A stretch of 64,000 nucleotides of DNA from an uncultured Bacteroidia bacterium (GTDB lineage: Bacteria > Bacteroidota > Bacteroidia > Bacteroidales > Prolixibacteraceae). Position 1 is the stretch's first letter, and each line of letters starts with the position of its first letter. Positions 30,550 through 50,686 of the stretch are shown here, in pieces. The stretch lies in the NCBI GenBank assembly GCA_903904515.1, contig CAIVCR010000049.1:62001-126000 (forward strand). The letters are read 5' to 3'. Made by a program: the position numbers and the translations under genes. A model generated the notes under the pieces. That model was not told where the DNA came from. It saw nothing but the letters and a program-made list of their open reading frames with translations, and made no database searches.

Positions 30550-31209
30550 TTAAAAAAATACCTCAGTCCGGATATTCTCCGGCTGAATACCGTTTTGCTC
30601 AAGAAGCTCTGTTACTTCATTTACCATGTGTGAGTTTCCGCAGATATAAAAAATTGAATCTTTTCTGATTCCATTATCCCTGAGGTATTGCGTCACCCGT
30701 CCATAAAAATTCTCCCCATGTTCACGGGAGGTGCAAAGATGGTAGTTGTCTTCCAGATAATCTGCAGAATCGTATGCTTCATAACCATGTCTTACGCCAT
30801 GAACGACCTCATAATCAAGATTAGTATTCGATTGGATAATACTGTGAAACGGTGAAATTCCAGTTCCGGTAGCAATAAATGTATAATGTTTGTTTTCAAC
30901 TGGCTGAATATCTCTCAGGACAAAAAAACCAAATGGACCTGTAATTTCAACTTTTGTTCCGATTTTTAGGTATTTTAACTCCCTTGAAACTTCACCATTA
31001 TCAACCTCCTTAATTAACAAGTCAACAGTTAATGAATCCTCGGCACTATAGATTGAATACTCACGTGCCTTATATTTCCCAGGTACATTCAGCACCAGGT
31101 ATTGGCCTGCCTTGAATTCAAAATCACCCTTTTCCAAACTCAGAACGTAAGTTGATTCTGTCAGATTCCTGATTCCAAGGATTTTACTATAGGTTATTTT
31201 TTTTTTCAC
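30550..31209 (-). CDS. Ferredoxin-NADP reductase-like FAD-binding oxidoreductase
   Basis: KAREYSIYSAE (FAD-binding RxYS), GPFGFFVL, FIATGTGISPFHSII (NAD(P)-binding), FYICGNSHMVNEV. Confidence 0.88.
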   Translation of the reverse strand: MKKKITYSKILGIRNLTESTYVLSLEKGDFEFKAGQYLVLNVPGKYKAREYSIYSAEDSLTVDLLIKEVDNGEVSRELKYLKIGTKVEITGPFGFFVLRDIQPVENKHYTFIATGTGISPFHSIIQSNTNLDYEVVHGVRHGYEAYDSADYLEDNYHLCTSREHGENFYGRVTQYLRDNGIRKDSIFYICGNSHMVNEVTELLEQNGIQPENIRTEVFF

Positions 31210-31220
31210 TTTATAACCAC

Positions 31221-32075
31221 TTAAGCGTTGATGTGTTTTTCTGCATGGTAGGATGAACGAACCAGAGGACTACTCTCGACCATACTGAACCCTTTTTCAA
31301 GTGCGGCTTCCCGGTATTTGATAAAAGTTTCCGGTTTTATGAACTCCACAATTTTAAGATGATGAGAAGTTGGCTGAAGATATTGACCGATTGTCAAAAC
31401 TTTACAACCGACCTTAAGCAGATCGTCCATTGTTTCCAGGACCTCCTCTTCATGCTCACCGAGGCCAACCATAATTCCCGATTTGGGGACAAGTCCGGAA
31501 GCGGCAATAATCTCAATTACTTTTAGGCTTCTGTCGTAACGCGCAATATCTCTGACTTTTGGAGTCAATCTCCGAACAGTTTCCATGTTATGTGAGATTA
31601 CTTCAGGTTTGGCATCGATCACAACCTGTATTAATTCGGGTTTGGCATAGAAATCCGGAATTAAGGTTTCCATCGTAATTCCGGGATTTACCTCCTTGAT
31701 GGTTTTAATAGTCAATGCCCAAAAAGCTGCACCGCCATCATCAAGATCATCACGCGTAACTGAAGTTATTACGCAGTGTTTGATTTTCAGCGCCAGAATT
31801 GTCTCAGCCAGACGTCGAGGTTCTTCCATATCCACGGCATCAGGAATCATGTTTTTCACATCACAAAAACGGCAGTTTCGGGTACACTTTTCACCCAAAA
31901 TCATAAAACTGGCTGTTGAAGCTCCCCAACACTCTGCTTTATTTGGGCAGTTTCCACTCACACAGATCGTATTTAACTGCTGGTTGGCTGCCAGATTTTT
32001 CAGGGCAACATACTCCTTTCCTGAAGGAAGCGGAGTTTTCATCCAATCCGGAAGTCTTCGGGTAAGCGTTGTCAT
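31221..32075 (-). CDS. lipA: Lipoyl synthase
   Basis: NTICVSGNCPNKAECWG...ATFMILG-like ASFMILGEKCTRNCRFCDV (radical SAM CxxxCxxC), ITSVTRDDLDDGGA, KSGIMVGLGEHEEEV, LTIGQYLQPT. Confidence 0.97.
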   Translation of the reverse strand: MTTLTRRLPDWMKTPLPSGKEYVALKNLAANQQLNTICVSGNCPNKAECWGASTASFMILGEKCTRNCRFCDVKNMIPDAVDMEEPRRLAETILALKIKHCVITSVTRDDLDDGGAAFWALTIKTIKEVNPGITMETLIPDFYAKPELIQVVIDAKPEVISHNMETVRRLTPKVRDIARYDRSLKVIEIIAASGLVPKSGIMVGLGEHEEEVLETMDDLLKVGCKVLTIGQYLQPTSHHLKIVEFIKPETFIKYREAALEKGFSMVESSPLVRSSYHAEKHINA

Positions 32076-32303: not shown

Positions 32304-33209
32304 TTAAACAATCGTATAATCAAGATGGTTTAAATTAAAATAGGTTTCAGCTTCTTTTCTGTTCCGCGAAATGCCCAGAACATATCCTCCACCTCCTGAA
32401 CCACAGATTTTTAAGTAAAAATCGCCACTCTCAATTCCATATTTAAAATAATCTACCATATTTACCGGTATCATTGGCTTAAAATATGAGATCTGAAACT
32501 GGGAGTACTTACTCAATAGATTTTCAAAAGTACTGAAATCAGCAGCTAAAAGGGCATCTACGGTTTGATTTATTGTTGGGATATATTCAAAATCAATCTT
32601 CTGTTTGAAATCTGATTGATGATAGCGTTCAATAAAATATTTTACAAATGTTCCCGTATTTCCATGCGTATGGGAGTTGATCAGAAATAAAGTGTACTCA
32701 TTAGAAAATGGGGAGATGTCGATGGCACTATTCTGGGAATTCTGATTTTCCCAGAGAAGCGGTTTTTTAATCCACGAAATAATAGGATCAATTCCTGAGC
32801 TAACACCATGAAAACAGGATTCGATAGCTGTCAGGTACTTTTTAATAATCTGAATATCAAATGAATGATTAATATTTTTGTACCTGTCGAAAAGTGCTGC
32901 AGTAAGGGCTCCCGAGCTTCCTAAACCCGATCCGGAAGGAATTGATGAGTCAAAATACAACCCATTTTCAATATCCTGGTCAAATTGAGCGATATTCAGA
33001 AATTGAAAGTCGACCATCCGGGTTTTCAAAAAGTTGTATAATTTTCGCAATGCCAGATTCGATTCGTTAGCCAATTCTGAACGATCAATCTGTGAGGCGT
33101 CCGTGAAGCTGAACTTACCCGAAAAGCGGGGGTATGGAATGGCCAGAGCCTTTGAATCCAATAATATTCCATACTCTCCAAACAGAATTATTTTGGCAGG
33201 GTATTCCAT
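32304..33209 (-). CDS. Mevalonate kinase-like GHMP kinase
   Basis: MEYPAKIILFGEYGILLDSKALAIPYP, SSIPSGSGLGSSGALTAAL, CGSGGGGYVLGI; position in mevalonate cluster. Confidence 0.85.
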   Translation of the reverse strand: MEYPAKIILFGEYGILLDSKALAIPYPRFSGKFSFTDASQIDRSELANESNLALRKLYNFLKTRMVDFQFLNIAQFDQDIENGLYFDSSIPSGSGLGSSGALTAALFDRYKNINHSFDIQIIKKYLTAIESCFHGVSSGIDPIISWIKKPLLWENQNSQNSAIDISPFSNEYTLFLINSHTHGNTGTFVKYFIERYHQSDFKQKIDFEYIPTINQTVDALLAADFSTFENLLSKYSQFQISYFKPMIPVNMVDYFKYGIESGDFYLKICGSGGGGYVLGISRNRKEAETYFNLNHLDYTIV

Positions 33210-33210
33210 G

Positions 33211-34278
33211 TTATATCTTCTGTTCAGGTGTTAATTGCACAGGACCATTTCCCATCTTGTCATCAATCCATTGTCCACCTTCACAATACTGACTTAATGA
33301 CTTTTGGACAAATGAGAGTACTTGTTCACGTTGATCTTCATAATAGATCAGGTGGACATTTGGCCCGGCGTCGATGGTGTAAAAAATGTCGAGCCCGGTT
33401 GAGTCCCGGTACCGTTTTATCTCTTCAATAATATGTAATGTACCTGGTTTTAATAATAGCCCATCTGATCCTGATGTCATTAGCAAGGCGTGAAGGGAGA
33501 GGGCCTCATTTTCAGCAATCGATGCAATAGTTTGATAATCATTTGTGCGAATAGCCTCCGTTATTTTTTCGAGATTGGTGTTCGCCTGCGACTTCCTCCC
33601 ATCACGGTAGGGATGTTCGTTCATCAGGGCATGCCCTTTACTGCTGGATACCGATTTTTGCATGGAACTAACAATCAGGATGATATCCATTAACTTATTT
33701 AAACGGCTATCTTCGGGCAATAAATAAGGGGTGGCATATTCATCGGATGACTCTTTGAGACAGGGAGTGTTGCCCCATAAGACAAGACCGCCGTAGACAG
33801 ATCTGGAAGCGCTTCCTGATCCGAGCCTGGCAATATGGGATGATCTTCGAAAGAAAATCTCCCTGCTCATCTTTTTTCCGTTTACTAATTCCTCCATACT
33901 CACCAGGCAAAGGGCAAGTGCACTCATGGATGAGGCTGAAGAGGCAATACCTGTGGAATGGGGAAAATTATTTTCGCTGTGAAATTCAAGTTCATAATCA
34001 ACCAGGAATGGCATTTCGGGGAGCAAATTATTTAGAAGCAACTCCGTTTTCTTCTCAAATTGAGGCAGCCGATCACCATGAAAGTAGTAGTTAAGGGCGA
34101 TTTCACTATTCCCACTCTCCTTTTTGCGAAACGAGAGAAAGGTCGTAGTCGTTGATTTTTCGAGCGTAATGCTTAATGATCCATTCTCCGGAAGCTGATT
34201 CGCCCTTTTTCCCCAGTATTTAATTAGGGCTATATTCGAAGGGGCCCGCCAACCAATATTTATGTTCTCTTCGCTCAT
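33211..34278 (-). CDS. mvaD: Diphosphomevalonate decarboxylase
   Basis: IGWRAPSNIALIKYWGKRANQLPENGSLSITLEKSTTTT, FPHSTGIASSASSMSALAL, RLGSGSASRSVYGGLVLWG, YTIDAGPNVHLIY. Confidence 0.95.
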   Translation of the reverse strand: MSEENINIGWRAPSNIALIKYWGKRANQLPENGSLSITLEKSTTTTFLSFRKKESGNSEIALNYYFHGDRLPQFEKKTELLLNNLLPEMPFLVDYELEFHSENNFPHSTGIASSASSMSALALCLVSMEELVNGKKMSREIFFRRSSHIARLGSGSASRSVYGGLVLWGNTPCLKESSDEYATPYLLPEDSRLNKLMDIILIVSSMQKSVSSSKGHALMNEHPYRDGRKSQANTNLEKITEAIRTNDYQTIASIAENEALSLHALLMTSGSDGLLLKPGTLHIIEEIKRYRDSTGLDIFYTIDAGPNVHLIYYEDQREQVLSFVQKSLSQYCEGGQWIDDKMGNGPVQLTPEQKI

Positions 34279-34300: not shown

Positions 34301-35236
34301 CTAAACCTTATCTAAAACCATCTCACCGTACCTGAAGATGGTTTTTAAGTTTTTATTTATAAAGTAGTTGCGTACATATTCTTCAGTCTCGTCCGATACT
34401 GCCAGGATATAATCACCACCCCAGGCACCCAGCGATTTCACTGAACCCTTAAAATCGTTAAAATACATCGATTTAACAGGCTCAATTTGAATTATATTTC
34501 CAATTATTCTTTCATGCCGGTTTAATAATAGCTGAAATGTCTCCAGGTTATTTGCAGCTTCGAGTCCCAGCGTTAGTTCTGAAATTTCGGAGATGATCCT
34601 CTTATCAACAGTGGAAAGATCCAATTTCCGGATGCTCTCCCGGGAGTTCTGTTTCCGGTTAAGATAGACGAAATAAAGTTGATCTGCGAAATCGGGGTGA
34701 AAATTGGCTTCCCGGTAGGATGGTTGATTATCAATGATTTCATAGATAATCGGCGATAATGATCTGGCACAGGCAATATCGTAACCTGAACCGTTGAATA
34801 CCAGATTATTCAACTCAAATGGGTCACAATCGGCCCAATAGGCAATATTTGAAATCAGCGAACTGCTCGATCCTATTCCCCATGCCGGATCAAAATCCAT
34901 TCCGGATATTACCTGATAATCTAGAGGTTTATCCAGGAATTTTGGATTTAGCAATCTTGCAGCTTTAAGAATTCTAACCAGTGTCGCTGACAAGTCAGGA
35001 TTATTGGTTTCCGAAATTTGGAAGTCGGGTAGGAGCAGGGTGGCAGAAAGCCATAAATCATTAAAGATCTTTGATTTCCATTCAATTGAGGGGATACCGG
35101 AATGCTCTGTTATTGATAGTTCCTGTGTGAATTTTAACGGTAAGGCCAGTGAAAGGGCACCTTTAAGTACAAGGTATTCACCGGTTAACATCAATTTAGT
35201 TTGTGAGGTAAAAGATCTCATCTGCTCGGAATTCAT
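34301..35236 (-). CDS. GYDIA-family GHMP kinase (candidate phosphomevalonate kinase)
   Basis: TKLMLTGEYLVLKGALSLALPLKF, DPAWGIGSSSSLISNIAYW, NGSGYDIACARS signature; ATGA overlap with upstream mvaA. Confidence 0.88.
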   Translation of the reverse strand: MNSEQMRSFTSQTKLMLTGEYLVLKGALSLALPLKFTQELSITEHSGIPSIEWKSKIFNDLWLSATLLLPDFQISETNNPDLSATLVRILKAARLLNPKFLDKPLDYQVISGMDFDPAWGIGSSSSLISNIAYWADCDPFELNNLVFNGSGYDIACARSLSPIIYEIIDNQPSYREANFHPDFADQLYFVYLNRKQNSRESIRKLDLSTVDKRIISEISELTLGLEAANNLETFQLLLNRHERIIGNIIQIEPVKSMYFNDFKGSVKSLGAWGGDYILAVSDETEEYVRNYFINKNLKTIFRYGEMVLDKV

Positions 35237-36540
35237 ATTTTGCTCCTTAATGAAAGGATAAAGTCATTGACAGCCGAATTGCTTACTGTTTTATCCGAAA
35301 AATAGTCATTCGCCAGATTTCGTTCTGTTTCTGATGTACTAAGCTGGTTCAGAATATTTGAAAGATGCATTTTCATATGCCCGGTCTGAATACCAGTTGT
35401 AATGAGTGAAGCAATGGCAGAAAAATTATTGGCAAGTCCCGACGCTGCGGCAATCATCATTAGCTTTTTAGAATCAGGATATTTTAAAATAGCCATTACA
35501 TTTTTTACCATCGGATGAATTTGTGTAATTCCACCAACAGTGCCGATTGCCAGTGGAATTTCCAGTTCATACCTGAAGGTTTGATCAGTGAGTGTTACCG
35601 TTGTCAATCCCCGGTAATGTCCCTCTTTTGATGCGTATGCGTGAGCCCCGGCTGCCGTTGCCCGGTAGTCATTTCCGGTGGCCAATAGTACTGCATCTAT
35701 CCCATTGAAAATACCTTTGTTATGCGTTACGGCCCTGGATATATCGAGATTAGCTATATCAACCGATTGTTTAAATTTCGTGGCAAAGAGATTGTATGAT
35801 AAGCTTTTATTCCATCCCGATAATTGTTCCACCGGACATTCGACCCAGCAATTTACTTTGCAATCAGGTGTATAGTTTGACAGGATTGACATGATTATTT
35901 CAACTCTGTTGTCATGGGTATTCAGTTCAGATATGTTTTCCAAAACTGAGGCAAACTTTTCGAGTACGGTATTGATGAAATTTGCACCCATAGCATCCCC
36001 GGTTTCAAAGGAGACGTCAATCTGATAATATCCTGCCAGTTCATTTGTTTTATCGGAAAGAAGGATATCGGTAATTCCTCCACTCCGTTGCCTCATTTTA
36101 GCTGTTAACTCAAGAGTTTCATCTATTAGTTTTCTTTTTATTTCAGGAAACAGTTGTTGTATTGATTCCGGATTGCCATTCCAGGTAAAATGAACCTGGC
36201 CTTTTTTAGTCATCGCATCGACCTTTGCCTTGAAACCACCTCGTTCAGCCCAGAATTTAGCTGCTTTGGAGGCTGCGGCGACTACTGAACTCTCTTCAGT
36301 CACAAATGGGACAATATAAGCTTCCCCGTTAATCACCATATTGGTAACAACTCCTAAAGGGATAGGGAAATTACCGATATAATTTTCGATCATTTCACTG
36401 AATAACCGTTGTTGATCCCCATTAGGTGGGCAATAATCATCCAGGTGCAAGGAATCTCCTTCCGTCAGATCGGAATTGGCTGTTATGTAGTCCAGCCGTT
36501 GTTTATGGTCAAACTTTGAAAAACCGGAGATTACCTTCAT
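35233..36540 (-). CDS. mvaA: Class II hydroxymethylglutaryl-CoA reductase
   Basis: MIENYIGNFPIPLGVVTNMVINGEAYIVPFVTEESSVVAAASKAAKFWAERGGF, DAMGANFINTVLE, GTVGGITQIHPMVK. Confidence 0.95.
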   Translation of the reverse strand: MKVISGFSKFDHKQRLDYITANSDLTEGDSLHLDDYCPPNGDQQRLFSEMIENYIGNFPIPLGVVTNMVINGEAYIVPFVTEESSVVAAASKAAKFWAERGGFKAKVDAMTKKGQVHFTWNGNPESIQQLFPEIKRKLIDETLELTAKMRQRSGGITDILLSDKTNELAGYYQIDVSFETGDAMGANFINTVLEKFASVLENISELNTHDNRVEIIMSILSNYTPDCKVNCWVECPVEQLSGWNKSLSYNLFATKFKQSVDIANLDISRAVTHNKGIFNGIDAVLLATGNDYRATAAGAHAYASKEGHYRGLTTVTLTDQTFRYELEIPLAIGTVGGITQIHPMVKNVMAILKYPDSKKLMMIAAASGLANNFSAIASLITTGIQTGHMKMHLSNILNQLSTSETERNLANDYFSDKTVSNSAVNDFILSLRSKI

Positions 36541-36550
36541 ATCTGAGAAT

Positions 36551-37612
36551 TTAAAGGATTTTCTTTGGGACTTTTAAAGTCAGGAAGTTTTGAGCCATCC
36601 GGTAACCTTCAATTTGAGCGGTAACGAATTGCTGTAAATCATCATATTCACCCTGGCTATATTTTAAAAACGCAGAGGCTTGTGCGTAAATTGAAGGCAT
36701 AAGTGATTTTTGAGTGAGATAGAATCCGTCAAGATAACTATGTATTCCCCCGGATATAATAAGCTGGTTACAAGCGAATTTATCGCCATTTAACACCAGA
36801 TCATTGACCAGATCAACCATCTCTTCAGCGGGTACACCAACCTTGACAAATGGCTGATGCAATTCCTGTTTAAGGATTGTATTTCGCTGTATTTCAACCT
36901 TCGCAAAATTGGTACCTCCAAAAGCACCAAATTCAATGGCAGTGAGTGGTAATTGCAATAACCGGCGGATACTTTGCGGTCCAAAACCTTGTCCAACTTC
37001 TTTGACAATTAGTTGAAAATCAATTTTATCCAATAGTTTTTCGATAGTGTCTGCCGGTGAATTGTGAATTATATTTCCTTCCGGTTGCATCCATTCCTGA
37101 AGAGGGTTGACATGGATAATCAATCCATCTGCTTTTAGCCGGTCGATCAATCGTCGAAGAACATCGGTTTCTTTTTTCTCAATCAGCTCCTCAATTTGAG
37201 CAATCCCCAGATTTGCAAAGAGGGGATTCTCGTCACCCATCATCGAACGGACATCAAAGTCCTTAAAATAGGTGTCTTCGTTGAGCAACATCCGGCAGGA
37301 ACCTAGGCCCATTCCCATTCCAAACTCTTTACACGCCCTGGCAAGGTTATGATTTATCTTTCCAGACAACAGATGTCCACCTGTCATGCTTGAAATCCAT
37401 ATGGGAACTTTTAATTCTTTTCCTGCAAATGGGATTTTGTTTAAGGGTTTATCGGGAAAACCGGAGATCATCGGCTCGTAATAAAAACGACTATCAGCCT
37501 CATTTATATGTGTTTGAGATTGAAGCGCCAGAATAATATGATCCGATTTCCGTTTCGAATCGTCAGGATTTAATTGATTCATAAGATTATTCGGAAGATC
37601 TGCAATTGCCAT
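36551..37612 (-). CDS. fni: Type 2 isopentenyl-diphosphate delta-isomerase
   Basis: RKSDHIILALQSQ, PIWISSMTGG, MGMGLGSCRMLL, HVNPLQEWMQPEGN, VKEVGQGFGPQSIRRLLQLPLTAIEFGAFGGTNFA. Confidence 0.94.
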   Translation of the reverse strand: MAIADLPNNLMNQLNPDDSKRKSDHIILALQSQTHINEADSRFYYEPMISGFPDKPLNKIPFAGKELKVPIWISSMTGGHLLSGKINHNLARACKEFGMGMGLGSCRMLLNEDTYFKDFDVRSMMGDENPLFANLGIAQIEELIEKKETDVLRRLIDRLKADGLIIHVNPLQEWMQPEGNIIHNSPADTIEKLLDKIDFQLIVKEVGQGFGPQSIRRLLQLPLTAIEFGAFGGTNFAKVEIQRNTILKQELHQPFVKVGVPAEEMVDLVNDLVLNGDKFACNQLIISGGIHSYLDGFYLTQKSLMPSIYAQASAFLKYSQGEYDDLQQFVTAQIEGYRMAQNFLTLKVPKKIL

Positions 37613-37630: not shown

Positions 37631-38773
37631 CTATAATACGTAACGCGAAATGACCATTTTTAAAATTTCGGAGGTCCCTTCGCCAATCGAAAGTAACCTT
37701 TGATCCCTGTAAAACCGTTCGATATGGTTTTCCCGCAAAAAACCGAATCCACCATGGATCTGAAGTGACTCACCGGCAATTTCACGGGCTATATCCGAAC
37801 AATAAAGTTTCGACATGGCAGCCTGCTTTCCAAATGGTAAACCGGCTTCCTTGAGTCTGCAGGTATGGTAAAGTGTATTTCTTGCTAATTCGATTTTCAT
37901 CGCCATTTCGGCGAGTTTAAACGATACGGACTGAAAATCAGACAACGATTTTCCAAATTGTTTGCGTTTTTGAGCATAATCAGAGGCCATTTCAAAGGCA
38001 CCCTGTGCAAGACCCAAGCCAATAGCTGCTATCGATAATCTTCCACCATCAAGTGTCGAAAGCATAATTTTCAACCCTTCACCCTTTTTGCCCAGAATAT
38101 TTGATTCGGGAACGCGACAATTTTGGAAATTAAGCTTTCCATTATCCACAGCGCGCCACATCAATTTCCCTTTTATTGGGGTTGTTTGATACCCGGGAGT
38201 TGAGCGATCGATTAATATGGCCGATAACTCCTTCTTTCCATCTTTTAACCCGGTAATGGCCTGCGCGGTAATCCCGGTTGCAATAGAGGAACAACTATTG
38301 GTAATAAACATTTTAGAACCATTTATAATCCAATGATTGTCTTCCAGTATTGCCTCCGTTTCAACCCCTTTGGCATCAGACCCGGCATTGTCTTCGGTCA
38401 GGCCAAAAGCCCACAATTTTTCACCATTACATAATCCCGGAAGATACTTTGTCCGTTGAGCCTCTGTCCCATATATGTAAATTGGGCTTATTCCAAGTGA
38501 GTTATGTGCAGCAATTGTCGCTGCAGGGGAGCTGTCTACACGAGCAAGTTCTTCAACTGCAATAATATAGGATAGATAATCCAATCCTTGTCCACCATAT
38601 TTTTTTGGCAGGGTAATTCCAAAAAGTCCCGCTTGCCCCATTTTTAATGCTAAATCAACAGGGAATTCCTCTTTTTCATCCTGTTCAATCGCAATCGGTT
38701 TAACTATACTTTCAGCAAAAGTTCTGATTTTTATCCGGTATTCTGAATACCTTTCATCTAACAATTCATTCAT
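37631..38773 (-). CDS. Acyl-CoA dehydrogenase, probably isovaleryl-CoA dehydrogenase by context
   Basis: GQAGLFGITLPKKYGGQGLDYLSYIIAVEELARVDSS, WAFGLTEDNAGSDAKGVET, RKQFGKSLSDFQSVSFKLAEMAMKIELARNTLYH, QIHGGFGFLRENHIERFYRDQRLLSIGEGTSEI. ATGA overlap with upstream gene. Confidence 0.92.
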   Translation of the reverse strand: MNELLDERYSEYRIKIRTFAESIVKPIAIEQDEKEEFPVDLALKMGQAGLFGITLPKKYGGQGLDYLSYIIAVEELARVDSSPAATIAAHNSLGISPIYIYGTEAQRTKYLPGLCNGEKLWAFGLTEDNAGSDAKGVETEAILEDNHWIINGSKMFITNSCSSIATGITAQAITGLKDGKKELSAILIDRSTPGYQTTPIKGKLMWRAVDNGKLNFQNCRVPESNILGKKGEGLKIMLSTLDGGRLSIAAIGLGLAQGAFEMASDYAQKRKQFGKSLSDFQSVSFKLAEMAMKIELARNTLYHTCRLKEAGLPFGKQAAMSKLYCSDIAREIAGESLQIHGGFGFLRENHIERFYRDQRLLSIGEGTSEILKMVISRYVL

Positions 38774-40776
38774 TTAAAATCCTCCAGAAAGATAAGGGGC
38801 ATGCGGTCTGTGACCTGAGCTCCCACATTAACAGCAATTTTTTTCACTTTGGCGTCCATGGGCGAAAGAATTCGATTTTCAGATTTCATGGCCTCAATTA
38901 CCATCAAAAGATCGCCTTTTTTTATGATTTGATTTTCTATTACATTGATTTCTAATATTTTGCCATGAAGCGGAGATTTGATCTCACCACTTTCAAATTT
39001 TGAACTGTCATCTAAATCAGACTGAATCTCCAAATAACTAGTTAACAATCCGGGAAATAAAATGTTGTGATGGATATTTTCACAACTAACCTTTAGATTG
39101 TTATGATTCTCAAATATAGCTGAAATTCTGGTAGTTTTGTTGTCAATCACAATGTCAGTCCAATTTCCGGATTGATTACCAGTTGTAAAAACAGTTCTTA
39201 TTCCGTTCAGGACAAATGCAGGTCTGGATTTCTCTTTCAAGTCGGGAATTACCATATATACTTCATCATCAATCGAAAGGGGAACTTTAGCTGAAGCAGA
39301 ACGCCAGTATCCCAGATAATTCCATGGATTATTATTCGTTTCGCCGTATCCGCTCTTTAGATAGATCTTCCAAATGGCAAACGCAACAAGATAGTTTAGC
39401 TGATCTGAGTTAAATTTATTTATGTAATTATCTATCAGAATTTTGTGATTTTTCTTGCAAAATTCAACGGAGATCACGTTTTGTTGATAACCCGGATGGG
39501 TAAGAATCGTTTCAAGATATTTTACATTTGTTTCAGGACCTATGATATTCAGGTTTTTGATTCCATTTCTCAGCATACTAATGGCACTCTCCCTATCTTT
39601 ACCCGTCGCAATTAACTTCAGCAATAATGGATCAAATTGATTACCAAGTGATTGGCTGGAATTTATATCAGACTCAATCCTCAATTCTGAATATTCCGGC
39701 AGATTAACAGATAATAAGGGTGCTGTTGATGGGGTGAAATTTTGTGAAGGGTTTTCCGCATAGATCCTTAACTCAATGGCATGACCTGTTAATTTAATAT
39801 CTTCCTGTTTATAGGAAATTGGAAATCCTGAGGCAATCCTTAACTGTTCATTCACAATGTCAATTCCGGTAATCTCTTCCGTTACAGCATGTTCGACCTG
39901 TATACGTGGATTCATTTCCATAAAGAAATAGTTTCCCGATTCATCGACAAGAAATTCAACGGTACCTGCTCCGGAATAGTTAACTGCCTTTCCGATTTTT
40001 AGTGCAGCACTCAAGATCATAGCACGTAATTCCGGAGATAAAAAAATCGCCGGAGCCTCTTCAATAATTTTTTGATGGTTACGCTGAATAGAACATTCCC
40101 TTTCGTACAGATGTATAATATTATTGAAGTTATCACCTATTATCTGAACCTCGACATGACGGGCATTTTGAATGTACTGTTCAATAAAAAGCTCTCCATT
40201 ACCAAAATAATTTTGTGCTATGCGGGACGATTTTTCAACTTTCTGTTTAAATTCCTCATAGCTATGAACCAATTCCATCCCTTTACCACCACCACCAAAG
40301 GAGGCTTTTATCAATAGCGGATAGTGGAATAGCTTTTCGTCAGGGAGTGAAGACTGGGGATCGATCTTCTGACTGAATGCTACCGGAATTCCAAGGCTTA
40401 CAGCCAGCTGTTTAGCAGCGGGTTTGCTGCTCATTAAATTTAAGACCTCCGAAGAGGGGCCAATAAAGACGAGATGATTCTCTTCGCATGTTTTTGCGAA
40501 TGTATGGTTCTCAGATAGAAAGCCGTATCCTGGATGAATGGCTTGTGCACCTGTCGAAATAGCGATTTGAATTATTTTTGTGATATCCAAATAGGTTGAA
40601 TCCAATTCTCCATTTCCGAGGCTCACCGCTTCATCAGCCAACTTAACGAAATCAGCTTCCTTTTCCAGTTCCGTGTAAATAGAAACTGTTTTTATCCCTA
40701 ATTGTTTTGCCGAACGAATAATACGCAGGGCTATTTCCCCCCTGTTCGCAATTAATATTTTATCCAATAATTTCAT
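38770..40776 (-). CDS. Acyl-CoA carboxylase alpha subunit (biotin carboxylase + biotinyl domain), probable methylcrotonyl-CoA carboxylase alpha
   Basis: KILIANRGEIALRIIRSAKQLGIKTVSIYTELEKEADFVKLADEAV, HPGYGFLSEN, IKASFGGGGKGM, MNPRIQVEHAVTEEITGIDIV; C-terminal VIEAMKSENRI biotinyl motif. Confidence 0.93.
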   Translation of the reverse strand: MKLLDKILIANRGEIALRIIRSAKQLGIKTVSIYTELEKEADFVKLADEAVSLGNGELDSTYLDITKIIQIAISTGAQAIHPGYGFLSENHTFAKTCEENHLVFIGPSSEVLNLMSSKPAAKQLAVSLGIPVAFSQKIDPQSSLPDEKLFHYPLLIKASFGGGGKGMELVHSYEEFKQKVEKSSRIAQNYFGNGELFIEQYIQNARHVEVQIIGDNFNNIIHLYERECSIQRNHQKIIEEAPAIFLSPELRAMILSAALKIGKAVNYSGAGTVEFLVDESGNYFFMEMNPRIQVEHAVTEEITGIDIVNEQLRIASGFPISYKQEDIKLTGHAIELRIYAENPSQNFTPSTAPLLSVNLPEYSELRIESDINSSQSLGNQFDPLLLKLIATGKDRESAISMLRNGIKNLNIIGPETNVKYLETILTHPGYQQNVISVEFCKKNHKILIDNYINKFNSDQLNYLVAFAIWKIYLKSGYGETNNNPWNYLGYWRSASAKVPLSIDDEVYMVIPDLKEKSRPAFVLNGIRTVFTTGNQSGNWTDIVIDNKTTRISAIFENHNNLKVSCENIHHNILFPGLLTSYLEIQSDLDDSSKFESGEIKSPLHGKILEINVIENQIIKKGDLLMVIEAMKSENRILSPMDAKVKKIAVNVGAQVTDRMPLIFLEDFK

Positions 40777-40830: not shown

Positions 40831-41613
40831 TTACCATCTGGGTTTTCTTTTTTCAAGAAAAGCTGAAAATCCCTCCTGCGCCTCAGGTGAAATCCTGATT
40901 TTTGCCAATAAATTTGGGATTTGCTCAATCTTTTCACTTACGGCTAATTCAGTAAGCTGATTGATTAATTTTTTGGATTCAACAATTGCATTCCTGCCAT
41001 TGGATAATATCAGGTTGATTTGCTCGTTTAAATGAGACTCCATCTTCTCCGGAGTACTGAACGATTGATTAATCAAATTATAGTTGGCAGCTTCTTCTCC
41101 GGTAAAGTTTCGTGCTGTAAAAATAAGCTCTTTGAGATCTGAGGCACGCATTTTCTGAAGCAGATAAGGGGTAATCGAGGCCGCTGCCATTCCGATGCGG
41201 GTTTCACTCAATGAAAATTTTGAATCGGCAACACAATAGGAGAGATCGCTCGCCGCAACTATTCCGTTTCCACCACCAAAAACATTACCATGTACTGCTG
41301 CAATAACAACTTTACTACTTTTAAAAATATGACCGAACATATCTGACAGTTCTAAACTCTCCTTCAGATTTTCTTCTTCGCTTAACGTGAATGACTTTTT
41401 CATCCACAAAAGATCTGCTCCGGAACAAAATGATTTTCCTAAACCTCTGATTACGATAATTCTGATTTTATCATTTTCCTCAATTTGCGTAAAGAAGGTG
41501 GAAATTTCCCGGATCATAGTATCGTTTAACGCATTATGGACATCCGGACGGGCAAGCCACAGCGTTATAACATACTCATTAATTTCTGTTTTTAGTGTCA
41601 GGTAATTTTCCAT
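40831..41613 (-). CDS. Enoyl-CoA hydratase/isomerase family, probable methylglutaconyl-CoA hydratase
   Basis: IIVIRGLGKSFCSGADLLWMKK, VIAAVHGNVFGGGNGIVAASDLSYCVADSKFSLSETRIGMAAASITPYLL typical of LiuC/AUH-like hydratases. Confidence 0.88.
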   Translation of the reverse strand: MENYLTLKTEINEYVITLWLARPDVHNALNDTMIREISTFFTQIEENDKIRIIVIRGLGKSFCSGADLLWMKKSFTLSEEENLKESLELSDMFGHIFKSSKVVIAAVHGNVFGGGNGIVAASDLSYCVADSKFSLSETRIGMAAASITPYLLQKMRASDLKELIFTARNFTGEEAANYNLINQSFSTPEKMESHLNEQINLILSNGRNAIVESKKLINQLTELAVSEKIEQIPNLLAKIRISPEAQEGFSAFLEKRKPRW

Positions 41614-41678: not shown

Positions 41679-43247
41679 TTACATTCTGTAGATTCCATTT
41701 TTAGGTGAGGTCGTTTTTTTATTGGATGCTGCTGAAATAGCCAATCCGATAATGGCTCTGGTATCAACAGGATTGATAATACCATCGTCCCAAAGCCTGG
41801 AAGAACTATAGTAAGCAGAGCTCTCTTTTTCAAATCTGCTTATCAGATCATCATTTTGATCATCGCTATTCCCTTTAATCGAGTTTAAAACTTGTTGTGC
41901 CTGCTGTCCACCCATTACACCTATCCTGGCATTTGGCCACATAAACAGGAAGTCCGGATTATAAGCCCTACCGGACATTGCATAGTTTCCTGCGCCAAAT
42001 GAGCCTCCAATGATTACCGTTATCTTGGGAACTACCGCCGTTGCGACTGCATGAATCAGCTTGGCACCATTACGGGCAATCCCCTCATGTTCGTACTTTT
42101 TTCCAACAATAAATCCGGATATATTTTGCAAAAATAGTAAGGGTATCTTTCTGAAATTGCAAAGCTCGATGAAATGAGCACCTTTAAGTGATGCCTCAGA
42201 AGTGAGAAATCCGTTATTGGCTATAATCCCTACAGGGAACCCCAAAATTCTTGAGTATCCTGTAATTAAGGTTGTACCATAATCGCGTTTAAACTCCTCA
42301 AACTTACTGCCATCAACTATTCTGGCAATGATTTCATAGACTTCCACTGGTTTTCTTAAATCTACAGGTGCTAAGCCAAACAATTCATCAGAGCTATAAG
42401 TTGGTTCTTCAATGGGATGATTCTCAAAATGCTGAGATTCGTTCTGAGGAATTAATTCAAAGATATTCCGGCAAATCCGGATTGCATCTATTTCATTTTC
42501 TGCAAGATGATCAGCTACACCTGATATACCGGTATGAACGAAGGCGCCACCAAGTTCTTCGGCGGTAACTTCTTCGCCGGTTGCAGCTTTGACCAGTGGG
42601 GGACCCCCAATGAAAATCGTCCCCTGGTTTTTAACAATAATGGTTTCATCACTCATCGCGGGGACATAGGCTCCTCCGGCAGTGCACGATCCCATGACAA
42701 TTGAAATCTGTGGTATTCCGGCAGCAGACATTTGCGACTGGTTATAGAAAATTCTTCCGAAACCATCGTGATCGGGGAAGATCCGGGCCTGCTCAGGGAG
42801 AAAGATTCCTCCTGAATCAACAAGGTAAATACATGGAAGATGATTCTTTAAGGCAATCTCCTGGCCCCGTAAATGTTTTTTTACCGTTTCACTGATATAG
42901 GTTCCACCCTTAACTGTGGCATCATTGGCAATAATCATACATATTTTACCATGGATCTTACCGATTCCGGTAATGATTCCTGCCGATGGAAACTGATCAT
43001 CATATTGTCCGAAAGCAGCCAGAGGAGAAAGTTCTAAAAAGGGGGTGTTCTGATCAATCAGCAATTCAATTCTGCTTCTGGCATCCATTTTTCCACGCGA
43101 GCGGTGTCTGATTACCGGTAATTCCTCATCACGATGAATCACATCATTCATCCTTGAATTAAAAATAGTTATCAACTCGGTATATGATTCAACAGACGCT
43201 TTAAACTGAGAGTCTAAAATATTGATATTTGAATGGATCTTTTTCAA
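41679..43247 (-). CDS. Acyl-CoA carboxylase carboxyltransferase subunit, probable methylcrotonyl-CoA carboxylase beta
   Basis: [125 protein letters not shown] closely matches the MCCB/LiuB pattern. Confidence 0.94.
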
Positions 43248-43260
43248 TTTTCAGGTTTTA

Positions 43261-45681
43261 TCAATCATAAAGACCAGGGTACTTAGCAGGATTAAAAATA
43301 TGCATCATCTCATAAACTGCCTCGATAACTGTTTCCGTATTTGGCTTAGAAAAATATTCGCCATCTGTACCATAGGCACCCCGATGCACTTTAGCTGAGA
43401 GTGTTTTAGGTGGGGCATCAAGGTATTGAAATGCTTTCTGTTCTTCAACAACTTTTTGCATCATATAGGCTGTTGCTCCACCCGGAACATCCTCATCGAG
43501 AAACAGAATTTTTTTTGTTTTCTGAACAGACCGCCCTATTATCTGCTGAATATCAAATGGAATAAGTGTCTGTATATCAATTAATTCTGTTGATATATTT
43601 AATGCTCTTAATCTGTTGACAGCGCTGTGGGCAATCGTGACATTCCAGCCGTAAGTAACAATGGTAATGTCGGTTCCCTCTTCAATTATTTCTGGAATAC
43701 CAAGCGGAACTGTAAATTCGCCAAGGTTTTCGGGAACCATCTCGTGGATATAATATCCTTTCAATGGTTCAATCACCAAAGAAGGATTGTGTGCTTTCAG
43801 AAGCGTATTGTAAAACCCTGCTGCCTGGGTCATATTGCGTGGCACACAAATATTGACACCACTTATTGAGCCTATTAACATCCCCATGGGTGATCCGGAA
43901 TGCCACATACCCTGCAGCTGGTGCCCACGTGTACGGATGATAAGCGGAGCAATCTGTTGGCCGCTTGTACGATAATAGAGCGTAGAAAGGTCATCTGAAA
44001 TGGTAGGTAATGCATAAAGCAGATAATCGAGATACTGAATTTCAGCTATGGGACGAAATCCCCTGAGGGCAAGACCGATACCCTGGCCAATAATCGTGGT
44101 TTCCCTGATGCCGGTGTCAAATACCCTGTGGATACCATATTTCTCCTGCATCCCCTTCATCCCCTGATTTACATCGCCTAATTGCCCGGTATCCTCACCA
44201 AAAGTGATTAACAACGGATATTTGGCAAAGAGGATATCAAAATTCATATTTAGTATTTCGTGAGCAGGAACAGAAACAGGGTCAGGTGGATAAACCGGCT
44301 TAATTTCGTAATTTGTATCAAAATGATCTAAGTCATTAAATATGTGCGTGTTGTATTTTTCATATCCATTTTTCTCAATCTTTAATATCCAATTTAATAG
44401 GTTGCGTTTATTTTTTTGAAGCTCAGCAATCCCGTGCATGGAACGAAGTTGAGTCTTGGCTAAAGCGAGCAATTTTTTTCTGGTTGGGAATGGGGCAGCC
44501 AGGACCATCTCTAATTCCTCAGATATTTTAGACTGAAACGGGTTATTTTCAACTCCGATTGAAGCGATCAAATTCTGAAGTTGTTTCTTTTCTATATCAA
44601 AGTCCTGAATAAATGATTGCCAGGCCAGTTCTCTGGCTAGCCGGGCACGCTCAATAGCTTTAGCCTCAAGTGATACAATAGTTTCAAGATCGGAAATATT
44701 TTCCTCAAGTATCCATTCCCGAAATTTAATAATCGGATCATGAGCTTTCTCCCAGGCGATTCGCTGATCAGTTTTGTAACGCTCATGAGAACCTGAAGTC
44801 GAATGTCCTAAGGGCTGAGTGAGTTCGTTAATATGAAAAATTACCGGTATATGCTCCTCCCTGCAAATGCGGATCCCCTTTTCAAAGGTTTTGATTAAAG
44901 CCGGATAGTCGTAACCGAGGCAGACAAAGATTTTGCACCCAAGATCCTTTCCATCGGCTTCAAAACCTTTGAGTGCCTTGGAAATCGATCCTTTGGCAGT
45001 TTGAAGCTCCACAGGAACACTAATTCCAAAACCGTCATCCCAAATTGCCAGTGCCATTGGAACCTGAAGAACGCATGCAGCATTGATTGTTTCAAAAAAC
45101 ATCCCTTCCGAAGTACTCGATTCACCAATTGTTCCAAAAGCGACCTCATTTCCGGTAATCCTGTTTTCCAGATATTTTTGCAACTCAGGATTCTCCTTTA
45201 CAAGTTTGGAGGCCTGAGCCAAACCTAAAAGGCGAGGCATTTGTCCTGCAGTGGATGAAATATCAGAGGAAGAATTTTTTTGGGCCAATAAATTATCCAA
45301 CCCTTCTCCTTTGCCAAATGTTTTGGTTGCGTGGTGATTATTGAAGTTTCGTCCACCGGTCGAAGGGTTATTTTCCAGATCGGTATCACCATATATTTGA
45401 GCAAAGAATTCTTCAGGACTAAGCAAATCAGCTGCCATCATAAAAGTTTGATCTCTGTAATACCCTGATCTCCAGTCTCCATTTTGGAAATACTTTGCAT
45501 AGGCAACCTGAGCAAGCTCTTTACCGTCTCCAAAAATGCCAAAATGGGCACGACCTGCATGCACCTCTTTTCTCCCAAGAATACTAAGTTGACGGCTTAG
45601 AAATACAGTATAATAATCGTTAATAACGACCTCTTTTGTAACAGGTAACGATGGTATAAGCTTGTCCTCTTCCAGATGCAT
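43261..45681 (-). CDS. 2-oxoacid dehydrogenase E1 alpha/beta fusion, probable branched-chain 2-oxoacid dehydrogenase
   Basis: N-terminal alpha half (GDWRSGYYRDQTFMMA, AFGTIGESSTSEGMFFETINAACVLQVPMALAIWDDGFGIS) and C-terminal beta half (LLITFGEDTGQLGDVNQGMKGMQEKYGIHRVFDTGIRETTIIGQGIGLALRG) in one 806-aa ORF. Confidence 0.92.
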   Translation of the reverse strand: MHLEEDKLIPSLPVTKEVVINDYYTVFLSRQLSILGRKEVHAGRAHFGIFGDGKELAQVAYAKYFQNGDWRSGYYRDQTFMMAADLLSPEEFFAQIYGDTDLENNPSTGGRNFNNHHATKTFGKGEGLDNLLAQKNSSSDISSTAGQMPRLLGLAQASKLVKENPELQKYLENRITGNEVAFGTIGESSTSEGMFFETINAACVLQVPMALAIWDDGFGISVPVELQTAKGSISKALKGFEADGKDLGCKIFVCLGYDYPALIKTFEKGIRICREEHIPVIFHINELTQPLGHSTSGSHERYKTDQRIAWEKAHDPIIKFREWILEENISDLETIVSLEAKAIERARLARELAWQSFIQDFDIEKKQLQNLIASIGVENNPFQSKISEELEMVLAAPFPTRKKLLALAKTQLRSMHGIAELQKNKRNLLNWILKIEKNGYEKYNTHIFNDLDHFDTNYEIKPVYPPDPVSVPAHEILNMNFDILFAKYPLLITFGEDTGQLGDVNQGMKGMQEKYGIHRVFDTGIRETTIIGQGIGLALRGFRPIAEIQYLDYLLYALPTISDDLSTLYYRTSGQQIAPLIIRTRGHQLQGMWHSGSPMGMLIGSISGVNICVPRNMTQAAGFYNTLLKAHNPSLVIEPLKGYYIHEMVPENLGEFTVPLGIPEIIEEGTDITIVTYGWNVTIAHSAVNRLRALNISTELIDIQTLIPFDIQQIIGRSVQKTKKILFLDEDVPGGATAYMMQKVVEEQKAFQYLDAPPKTLSAKVHRGAYGTDGEYFSKPNTETVIEAVYEMMHIFNPAKYPGLYD

Positions 45682-47558: not shown

Positions 47559-48620
47559 TTATTTGAAACAAAATGAACCCGGAATAATGCCGGTTTTAAA
47601 GCTGTCAATTTTCGCACCGAGTGCCGAATAACGGTAGATTACTCCAGGCTGCTGATAATCAATGGCATCACTTAGGTAAAGCTCAGATGTGGCTGGATCT
47701 ACTGCGAGGCTGTAGTATAAATGATTACCAGTCGCCAGGAAAGGTCGGTCATTTAAAGCTGGTTGTGTTACGCCAAGTTTCCAGATACCATTATTAATAA
47801 ACAACAACGAATCTCCGGCACTATTTATCGCAAGTCTCGAAGGGGCATTGTCGGATGTTAAAGCAAAGCTCTTCTCAATGGATCGATTTACCGGGTCGAT
47901 CCGCTGGAGCATTGGAGCCCTTGCATTTATTCCGTTTTTCACCCACCCGCCGTCACAAAGAGTCCAAATCTTATTGAACTTATCCACAACCAGACCGCCA
48001 GGTTGTTTGCCGGTTTTTATGGAATCAACAATCATATCGGTGCGGGTATCTATCACCAGAATGGTGTTGTCGAACGACCAGCAACTGACGAACAAAAAGT
48101 CGTTCCAAAGTACCAGCTGCTCAGTCGATAAGTGTCCCGGGGTTCGTATTTCTCCTGTAATTTTTAATGTTGCAGGATTTGCAATTGTGATTTTTCCAGC
48201 ATAAAGATCTGTAATATAAGCTTTTTCATTATTTGCAAATTGAATGTAACGGGGCGAGGTTAGCCCGGTAATTTTCCCAATATATTTCCCGTCTGATGGA
48301 TCAATCACATAAATCTTGCCTGAGTTATTTATTACAATATAACCCAGTTTATTATGAATGACCATCGATTGGGCAACATCACCCAGGGGCAGACCGTTGA
48401 TCGTGTAAAAAAGGTCATTTTGGACATTTTTTGTCGAAGGGTCATAAAAAGAGAGGGTGGCGTTCCCATACATGAAGTTGCCCTCGTTTATAATAAATAC
48501 CCCTTTGCTTAACAAATTAATGTTTTGATGATTTTTAACCCACTCATTATCTTTCATACAACCTGCAAGCGAAAGGAGTAGGATGACAACAAGGGCGATA
48601 TTTTGACAGTTGGTTCTCAT
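47559..48620 (-). CDS. YncE/BtuG-like beta-propeller surface lipoprotein
   Basis: Lipobox LLSLAGCMKD; GVFIINEGNFMYGNATLSFYDPSTKNVQNDLF and repeated IYVIDPSDGKYIGKITG, ILVIDTRTDMIVDSIKTGKQPGGLVVD propeller blades; operon with TonB-dependent receptor behind a cobalamin riboswitch. Confidence 0.82.
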   Translation of the reverse strand: MRTNCQNIALVVILLLSLAGCMKDNEWVKNHQNINLLSKGVFIINEGNFMYGNATLSFYDPSTKNVQNDLFYTINGLPLGDVAQSMVIHNKLGYIVINNSGKIYVIDPSDGKYIGKITGLTSPRYIQFANNEKAYITDLYAGKITIANPATLKITGEIRTPGHLSTEQLVLWNDFLFVSCWSFDNTILVIDTRTDMIVDSIKTGKQPGGLVVDKFNKIWTLCDGGWVKNGINARAPMLQRIDPVNRSIEKSFALTSDNAPSRLAINSAGDSLLFINNGIWKLGVTQPALNDRPFLATGNHLYYSLAVDPATSELYLSDAIDYQQPGVIYRYSALGAKIDSFKTGIIPGSFCFK

Positions 48621-48622
48621 TT

Positions 48623-50674
48623 TCAGAAATCGTAACGGATCAGCAGTGAATAATTTCTTCCAGGCATTGGATTCTGCAGGATGGTGCGATACGATTCATT
48701 GAACAGATTGAGAATTTTAAGCTCCAAATCAAATTTGGTTCTGTTCAGATGAATCTCCCTTCCTATACAGAGGTTATTCATAAAATAGGGGTAAAGTACA
48801 TCAAACTTTGAAATTTTTTCATTGCTTGTAGTTGTATAACGTTCACTATAATAGGTCCATAGCCACGTAAGGTGGTAGTTCGACCGCGAAAGATTTACAA
48901 CCAGGTTTGCTGATCTTTCCGGGATGAATGGAAGCTGCTTTCCGACTGATTGATCAGCCCAGTTACGCGGATCATCGCGATTTACCGATCTGGTATAGGC
49001 CAAATTCCCATTTAAATGATAATCAAGCGAGAATAATCTGCCACTGATTCCTCCGTTAAGTTCCAGTCCACCAGTATTTACCCTTTTCATATTATAAGGC
49101 TCCCAATATCCCTGAGGAGTGGGCAGCCAGATAATCCAGTTATTTATACCCGAAAGATAGCCGTTTAACGCGACGTGTAAGTTGACATTTCTAACGGTAG
49201 CTGAATAACCGGTTCCTAAATCGGCCATATACCCCTCTTCAGCTTTTAGCAGCGGGTTTCCACCAGGAATATAATAAAGATCGTTCAGGGTAGGCTGATG
49301 ATAATTCCTGGCTAATGATCCTTTTAAAAAATATCCCTTATCGCTGAATGGATGAAATTCAATTCCGGCCGAGGGGATGGGCGGTGTCGATTTACCCCCA
49401 ATAATGTCCTCCCTTGCCAGGATATTTGCCGATAAACGATCGTTAAATGACTTACTTAATTGAAGTGAAAAAGAGTGATCACGACGTTGTACATCATATC
49501 CTTGCGATACACCGTTTGCAGGCGAATTCAATGAATTAACTGTATTGAAATCAGAATTCGCACTGGCTATTAAAGACAGCTTATCACTGAACTGATAGAT
49601 GTAATTTACTTTCAATAAATAAGTTGCAGATTTGGAATGCGAGTCAGTTACAATTTGATCAGCCGTACCGTTAACCTTATTCTTTAACTGATAACCAGAT
49701 AGCTGAATATTTGCGCCCATTGAGAGATTTAATGTCCCTTTAAGCCCGTAAAACTTCCATTCAGCCAAGGGGCGGTGAGCCTGTTCTGATTGTCTGTTGA
49801 TGTTTGTATTTACGTCGGTTTCGTTGGTAAGCAGTTTAGGAAGACTTCGGTCATTATGCTGATACCAGTAACGAAGCGTTAATATCGATCTGCTTGTGGG
49901 ATGAAGATAGAATTCCTGAAGTAACCCATAATTTTCATACGCGGAATTTACGTTTCGCTGGGTAGGGTAGAGGTAGTTTCCTGTTAATGGGTCAATATTG
50001 GCGATGAGCTTATTTACAAATGAATAATCATTTTCAGAATAGTTATAAAAGCCCCTGGTTTGTGATTGGATTTTTTTATTCCCGCCGCTGATCTTGAAAA
50101 ATTCATCACGGGTACCATAGCTTCCTATTCCTGATAACAGTCGACCTGAGAATTTATTTTGCCAATCGGTGGTATTTTCCAGTTTAACAACACCGCCTAA
50201 TGCGCCACTTCGTTCCGATAGCGAACCGGATCCGTGTAATAGACTTACATTATCTGTAAAATATACCGGTATTGTCGAGAAGTCAACCATTCCGAGCATT
50301 GGCGAATTAAGGTTGATTCCATTCCATGACACCTGGGTGTGCGAAGCGGCGGTTCCACGAAAAGATGCTGTTGCCATCGCCCCACGACCATACTCTTTAA
50401 TAAAGACAGGGGTATTTTGTGAAATCAATTCTGATAAATTGGCTGTAAGGGCATTGATCATCGAAACAGAATCAATTCTGGTCGAAGTTTTTCCGGCCTC
50501 CTCCTTCACCATTGACTTTGTAAAAACGGTGATTGTTTTAATCCTTAATGTATCTGAAACATGTTGAGCAGCTGAAATTTTTGTGAAAATCACAAAAATC
50601 AGAAAGATCAAAGCTACAATTAGAAACCGTTTATTAAACTCCGGGAAATGCAATATAGGATTTGGAGTAAACAT
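48623..50674 (-). CDS. TonB-dependent outer-membrane receptor, BtuB-like
   Basis: Plug: ELISQNTPVFIKEYGRGAMATASFRGTAASHTQVSWNGINLNSPMLGMVDFSTIPV..; barrel ending in aromatic residue (LLIRYDF). Confidence 0.9.
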   Translation of the reverse strand: MFTPNPILHFPEFNKRFLIVALIFLIFVIFTKISAAQHVSDTLRIKTITVFTKSMVKEEAGKTSTRIDSVSMINALTANLSELISQNTPVFIKEYGRGAMATASFRGTAASHTQVSWNGINLNSPMLGMVDFSTIPVYFTDNVSLLHGSGSLSERSGALGGVVKLENTTDWQNKFSGRLLSGIGSYGTRDEFFKISGGNKKIQSQTRGFYNYSENDYSFVNKLIANIDPLTGNYLYPTQRNVNSAYENYGLLQEFYLHPTSRSILTLRYWYQHNDRSLPKLLTNETDVNTNINRQSEQAHRPLAEWKFYGLKGTLNLSMGANIQLSGYQLKNKVNGTADQIVTDSHSKSATYLLKVNYIYQFSDKLSLIASANSDFNTVNSLNSPANGVSQGYDVQRRDHSFSLQLSKSFNDRLSANILAREDIIGGKSTPPIPSAGIEFHPFSDKGYFLKGSLARNYHQPTLNDLYYIPGGNPLLKAEEGYMADLGTGYSATVRNVNLHVALNGYLSGINNWIIWLPTPQGYWEPYNMKRVNTGGLELNGGISGRLFSLDYHLNGNLAYTRSVNRDDPRNWADQSVGKQLPFIPERSANLVVNLSRSNYHLTWLWTYYSERYTTTSNEKISKFDVLYPYFMNNLCIGREIHLNRTKFDLELKILNLFNESYRTILQNPMPGRNYSLLIRYDF

Positions 50675-50686
50675 TCAGGCGACCAA

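Follow-up and report, generated by a model that had tools for sequence, protein, structure and literature searches.

A gene run joining leucine breakdown to mevalonate synthesis in an uncultured Prolixibacteraceae bacterium, and its proposed role as a leucine shunt

The 64-kb stretch of DNA analysed here (the window), from an uncultured member of the Prolixibacteraceae, contains a class II HMG-CoA reductase (HMGR) gene at the place where a leucine-degradation (liu) operon would be expected to carry the gene for HMG-CoA lyase (HMGL). This arrangement raises the question of where the HMG-CoA for such a reductase would come from and where it would go. Judging from the genes present, the run that includes HMGR most probably specifies a dedicated leucine shunt, in which isovaleryl-CoA would be converted into HMG-CoA, then into mevalonate, and ultimately into IPP.

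Enzymes encoded by the run

Ten genes follow one another on the minus strand: 2-oxoacid dehydrogenase E1, MCC-beta, hydratase, MCC-alpha, acyl-CoA dehydrogenase, isopentenyl-diphosphate isomerase, HMGR, a GYDIA-family kinase, diphosphomevalonate decarboxylase and mevalonate kinase. The gaps between them range from -4 to 65 bp, with 4-bp overlaps at two junctions (acyl-CoA dehydrogenase/MCC-alpha and GYDIA kinase/HMGR). Scans for promoters and terminators returned no more matches than did shuffled sequence. The first-pass annotation had proposed a candidate for every step from isovaleryl-CoA to IPP, and each of these candidates, all encoded on the same strand, indeed matches a domain or family profile.

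The run opens with bkdE1 (43261..45681; 806 aa), a fused alpha/beta 2-oxoacid dehydrogenase E1 with E1_dh, Transket_pyr and Transketolase_C domains, which is a candidate for the conversion of 2-oxoisocaproate to isovaleryl-CoA. Its substrate is assigned from context because, for the beta half, PDH and branched-chain E1-beta structures score much alike (144 vs 128 bits). The gene for lipoyl synthase LipA (31221..32075, minus strand; TIGR00510, 337 bits) lies 228 bp downstream of the run and is a conserved neighbour of it within the genus, as is, next to LipA, a FAD/NAD-binding oxidoreductase (30550..31209, minus strand; FAD_binding_6 and NAD_binding_1 domains); it is plausible that LipA supports a lipoyl-dependent dehydrogenase. 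On the other side, a DUF5074 protein, a TonB-dependent receptor and a PKD-domain protein are encoded in a row (47559-51862, minus strand).

MCC-beta, the carboxyltransferase (41679..43247; 522 aa), was assigned by comparison with solved structures: it scores about 610 bits against bacterial and mitochondrial methylcrotonyl-CoA carboxylase beta subunits, compared with 423 bits against geranyl-CoA carboxylase and about 270 bits against most propionyl-CoA carboxylases. On the first two of these scores, an acyclic-terpene (geranyl-CoA carboxylase) pathway was rejected. MCC-alpha (38770..40776; 668 aa) combines biotin carboxylase and biotin carrier, with the biotinyl motif EAMKS, and its best solved structure is likewise an MCC-alpha (451.6 bits). 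Between the two lies a candidate 3-methylglutaconyl-CoA hydratase (40831..41613; 260 aa; ECH_1), for which the second-best NCBIfam model is gamma-carboxygeranoyl-CoA hydratase and the structure match is isohexenylglutaconyl-CoA hydratase. The acyl-CoA dehydrogenase (37631..38773; 380 aa; Acyl-CoA_dh domains) is a candidate isovaleryl-CoA dehydrogenase. Its catalytic glutamate lies in GEGTSE, as in short-chain enzymes and not at the position used by isovaleryl-CoA dehydrogenase, which we count against the shunt, and in NCBIfam profile searches it resembles acryloyl-CoA reductase. We nevertheless infer the isovaleryl-CoA dehydrogenase role because orthologues occur in leucine clusters that contain HMGL.

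On the mevalonate side, type 2 isopentenyl-diphosphate isomerase (IDI2; 36551..37612; 353 aa) matches TIGR02151 at 188 bits, below the cut-off of 281, and mevalonate kinase (MvaK1; 32304..33209; 301 aa; GHMP_kinases_N), which closes the run, matches TIGR00549 at 84.9 bits, below the cut-off of 163; both shortfalls count against the shunt. Diphosphomevalonate decarboxylase MvaD (33211..34278; 355 aa; MVD-like_N and MDD_C domains) scores 170.0 bits against TIGR01240 (cut-off 171.35). The GYDIA-family GHMP kinase (34301..35236; 311 aa) exceeds the cut-off of NF040656 (342.9 bits; cut-off 225) and has no Pfam match. Its profile recovers mevalonate kinase at 7e-10, and its AlphaFold2 model (pLDDT 94.6) matches mevalonate and phosphomevalonate kinases, so that, on its predicted fold, the protein is plausibly the missing phosphomevalonate kinase. 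Within the canonical mevalonate set, HMGR, mevalonate kinase and MvaD are thus represented by family, and phosphomevalonate kinase by a GHMP-kinase candidate of the right fold.

The junction gene itself (35233..36540; 435 aa; PF00368, 296 bits) had been called a class II HMGR, and both the call and its boundaries hold. Among solved structures it is closest to 7n7s (418 bits), and the catalytic residues of the class, E83, K267, D283 and H381 in the numbering of Pseudomonas mevalonii (reference sequence confirmed against PDB 1qax), are all present and invariant in 20/20 aligned rows. The best NCBIfam model is TIGR00532, the 'degradative' HMG-CoA reductase, matched at 259.5 bits, just below its cut-off of 259.95. 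The first-pass annotation had warned that such a label would mislead here, and the cofactor helix bears this out: it carries Thr146 and Lys148 in place of the Asp146 and Leu148 of P. mevalonii, and each of the 20 aligned rows has T or S at position 146. We take Asp146 (and Leu148) to be the mark of the degradative NADH-type enzyme; an HMGR that has lost the aspartate and acquired a basic residue would tend to prefer NADPH, and T146/K148 in this respect fits a biosynthetic role. The degradative type, as in P. mevalonii, would also have an HMG-CoA lyase partner, which was not found in the genome, and mevalonate catabolism was rejected for lack of a lyase.

A second HMGR, of class I type (TIGR00533, 331 bits), is encoded elsewhere in the genome (G000:C122:18127-19233; L033:9382-10674). 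It adjoins an alpha/beta hydrolase gene, with no further mevalonate gene of the operon type within 20 kb, and similar class I matches are present in G014, G052 and G046.

HMG-CoA synthase and lyase, and the run in related genomes

The window belongs to a draft genome (130 contigs, 83% complete), which was searched together with 60 relatives; the incompleteness of the draft weighs against the shunt. HMG-CoA synthase (mvaS) was not detected by PF08540 in any of the 61 genomes. Since this model alone is too weak for Bacteroidota, giving 50-76 bits on true synthases, a custom profile was built from eight true Bacteroidota mvaS proteins and the absence re-tested. It found no mvaS in the window's genome or in any class II HMGR-bearing genome among the 60 relatives; the sole match among the relatives was a 69-bit partial one in G048, a genome that lacks class II HMGR. 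As a control, the same profile recovered true mvaS at 621-745 bits in 8/198 genomes of the class. By two profiles, then, the synthase of the canonical mevalonate pathway is missing from this genome and from the relatives that carry class II HMGR.

It is nonetheless conceivable, and quite improbable, that a synthase too diverged for both profiles makes HMG-CoA from acetyl-CoA, the leucine genes providing only a supplement. Thiolase-fold enzymes are hard to separate by profile, and weak matches to the mvaS profile (about 20 bits) do occur in other genomes of the class, but true synthases in the class stand some 600 bits above background, and the diverged enzyme would have to have been missed in all 26 HMGR carriers. 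A non-homologous HMG-CoA synthase may also have gone unrecognised, and we count this against the shunt.

For HMGL, no match in the 61 genomes exceeded the curated cut-off, and the best in the window's genome reached 42 bits. Because this cut-off misses Bacteroidota lyases (177 bits vs 246), absence was judged by the gap in scores: lyase-type matches of 174-194 bits occur in G041 and G053 only, and the remaining genomes reach at most 62 bits. The first-pass annotation had reported neither gene in the window. The operon region does lack both, and the observation now extends to the whole genome and the 60 relatives; the possibility that both genes are encoded elsewhere in the genome is not borne out, as neither was found there or in 17 congeners.

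More distant relatives show what occupies the end of such a cluster when a lyase is present. In G041 the cluster comprises MCC-beta, hydratase, MCC-alpha, dehydrogenase and HMGL; in G232 it comprises MCC-beta, hydratase, a pyruvate-carboxylase-like gene, dehydrogenase, lyase and 3-oxoacid CoA-transferase; and the G201 cluster is similar to that of G232 as far as the contig end. These canonical liu operons share with the window operon the subtypes of MCC-beta, hydratase and dehydrogenase, and the window operon has both MCC subunits and the hydratase. They differ in that the liu operon ends in HMGL (followed in G232 by 3-oxoacid CoA-transferase), whereas the window operon continues at that point with IDI2-HMGR-GYDIA-MvaD-MvaK1, the last step of the liu pathway being absent from window and genome alike. 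In the window lineage, the mevalonate genes occupy the position held by the lyase in these outgroups, as the first-pass annotation had supposed for HMGR. In all three outgroups HMGR lies on a different contig from the leucine cluster. In G232 and G201, the place of MCC-alpha is taken by a pyruvate-carboxylase-like protein (about 720 aa; L160:11256-13409 and L162:4552-6711). A second HMGL-like protein in G041 (L038:5676-6686; 336 aa, 199 bits) directly follows two 3-oxoacid CoA-transferase-like genes.

The arrangement is conserved. In 21 of the 24 relative loci compared, gene order is collinear from MCC to MvaK1, with the leucine genes leading into the mevalonate genes; one of these loci is that of the cultured Tangfeifania diversioriginum DSM 27063 (NZ_FQZE01000019). 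Every one of the 26 genomes with class II HMGR has leucine-type MCC-beta, compared with 4 of the 35 that lack this reductase (Fisher p = 2e-13; counted by genus, 13/13 vs 3/31, p = 1e-8; shared descent is ignored in both). In one of the four exceptions, G017, a contig end truncates the operon; the other three (G046, G048 and G052; loci L153, L154 and L155) have MCC-beta with neither class II HMGR nor a detected HMGL and are counted against the shunt. Since two near-complete congeners (G001 and G015) lack both MCC-beta and class II HMGR, the leucine and mevalonate genes seem to be gained and lost as a unit. In the MCC-beta tree, HMGR-bearing genomes contribute 24 rows, which group together in a single clade (SH-aLRT 99), deeper branches lacking resolution. 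Clusters of the order IDI2-HMGR-GYDIA-MvaD-MvaK1, with HMGR identity of 49-51%, were also seen in L065, L087 and L121, titled Halobacteriovoraceae, Bacteriovoracaceae and Oligoflexia; transfer between phyla and binning error are both possible.

These data bear on a second alternative, namely that two independent pathways merely adjoin, leucine being degraded by way of the MCC genes and a lyase encoded elsewhere, and an HMG-CoA synthase, also encoded elsewhere, feeding the mevalonate genes. Adjacent pathways do occur, and the two gene sets are separate in G041, G232 and G201, but no operon-bearing relative has mvaS or HMGL; in G041, the only HMGL-bearing genome among the relatives with class II HMGR, the sets lie on different contigs; and MCC and HMGR co-occur strictly. 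The co-occurrence and absence data largely refute this explanation, which we regard as very improbable.

The proposed shunt and isoprenoid supply

The leucine shunt favoured here is consistent with a conserved operon that joins the genes leading from isovaleryl-CoA to HMG-CoA with those from HMGR onward. We infer the substrate of each enzyme and the direction of flux as follows. Leucine-derived 2-oxoisocaproate, or imported isovalerate, would supply isovaleryl-CoA, which the acyl-CoA dehydrogenase would convert to 3-methylcrotonyl-CoA. MCC would then place CO2 on a methyl group of this compound, and the product of the hydratase would be HMG-CoA, with the MCC-derived carboxylate as its free acid. 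HMGR would reduce the thioester end to give mevalonate, mevalonate kinase and the GYDIA kinase would phosphorylate it, MvaD would remove the carboxylate to form IPP, and IDI2 would yield DMAPP. By established enzyme chemistry, the carboxylate lost at MvaD is the one added by MCC; the five-carbon isovaleryl skeleton would therefore enter IPP intact, and CO2 would serve as a transient activating group. Because neither HMGL nor mvaS was found, the detected source of HMG-CoA is leucine/isovalerate alone and its detected exit is mevalonate alone, which supports the earlier suggestion that HMG-CoA is channelled into mevalonate.

The reverse direction would resemble the myxobacterial aib route: HMGR would oxidise scavenged mevalonate to HMG-CoA, and the hydratase and dehydrogenase would carry this on toward isovaleryl-CoA, from which iso-fatty acids are made. 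It might be suggested by the degradative label of HMGR, by the likeness of the dehydrogenase to acryloyl-CoA reductase and by the formation of isovaleryl-CoA from HMG-CoA in M. xanthus (PMC9548883), but it was rejected and is the least probable alternative: the operon encodes an ATP-driven carboxylase and not a decarboxylase, its kinases, MvaD and IDI2 would draw mevalonate toward IPP, no mvaS is present as a source of HMG-CoA, and bkdE1 would already give isovaleryl-CoA.

The leucine shunt would operate beside the MEP pathway. IspH was found in the window's genome, and dxr, which was not found in this draft, is present in 24/26 class II HMGR carriers. The MEP pathway is thus very likely present, with the operon as a second supply. 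Mevalonate auxotrophy on deletion of the hydratase or MCC gene, which the first-pass annotation put forward, is accordingly not to be expected: with the MEP pathway in parallel, deletion of the operon should cause no such auxotrophy unless the MEP pathway is blocked too.

A wider pattern is seen elsewhere in the class. Profile score and end points assigned class II HMGR to 31 of the sampled class genomes, and dxr is absent from 30 of them, so the enzyme is likely biosynthetic there, which speaks for the shunt; 23 of the 31 lack detectable mvaS and 8 have it. In 22, dxr is absent and neither profile detects mvaS; G254 and G194, each a single contig, are among these. For the class genomes without mvaS, either a synthase goes undetected by both profiles or leucine feeds mevalonate synthesis far more widely than has been assumed. 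That leucine/isovaleryl-CoA is the only mevalonate source in much of the Bacteroidota, MEP-less lineages included, strikes us as rather unlikely; if true, those MEP-less bacteria would derive all their isoprenoids from leucine, and the window operon would represent one instance, physically fused, of what is generally the case. Flavobacteria have been described as possessing all mevalonate enzymes except phosphomevalonate kinase (PMC4026382), a statement that may conflict with the absence of mvaS from some of the class genomes.

The shunt would account for mevalonate genes without mvaS beside an MEP pathway, and would correct routine annotations of a 'degradative reductase' and an 'incomplete mevalonate pathway'. 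It would also change the interpretation of carbon-isotope signals in bacterial isoprenoids, and the operon would offer a natural gene set for making terpenoids from leucine or isovalerate; the authors of one review knew of no case in which the shunt had been built in E. coli (PMC8791446). The proposal can be tested now because a cultured species carries the operon.

Comparison with known leucine shunts

Conversion of leucine into HMG-CoA is an established route in Halobacterium salinarum, Leishmania and trypanosomatids, according to a review (PMC8791446) and a study of T. brucei (PMC5993337). As in the route proposed for the operon, leucine in Halobacterium and trypanosomatids is described there as reaching HMG-CoA in five steps and then mevalonate-derived lipids. 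The differences are that these accounts, as far as available, describe no single operon running from oxoacid dehydrogenase to IPP, and that the window lineage very likely has a parallel MEP pathway as well. T. brucei further encodes HMG-CoA synthase and a putative lyase, leucine being one feed among several (PMC5993337).

Myxobacteria form isoprenoids from leucine, and their terpenes are labelled by dimethylacrylate (PMC7321100); there, as in the window operon, the leucine-degradation chain joins the mevalonate pathway at HMG-CoA (PMC7321100, PMC9548883). Unlike the window lineage, M. xanthus uses HMG-CoA synthase, to judge from the title of a 2006 paper in J Bacteriol cited in PMC9548883, and, unlike the proposed operon route, it can run from HMG-CoA to isovaleryl-CoA (PMC9548883). 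Elizabethkingia resembles the window lineage in that standard annotation gives its mevalonate pathway no phosphomevalonate kinase and suspicion falls on a GHMP kinase. It is reported to possess the rest of the mevalonate enzymes and to lack MEP genes (PMC4026382), whereas in the window lineage MEP genes are present and mvaS is absent.

In the literature searched, with most subscription papers outside reach, no bacterial leucine-to-mevalonate operon free of lyase and synthase was found. The leucine shunt is already known as a side feed, and a single operon of this kind appears to be undescribed in the searchable literature. Where the sources state it, known leucine shunts supplement, or branch from, a pathway fed by mvaS. 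In the window lineage the lyase that would drain HMG-CoA is gone, and the textbook start of the mevalonate pathway, from acetyl-CoA via HMG-CoA synthase, appears to have been replaced lineage-wide by a leucine-breakdown chain.
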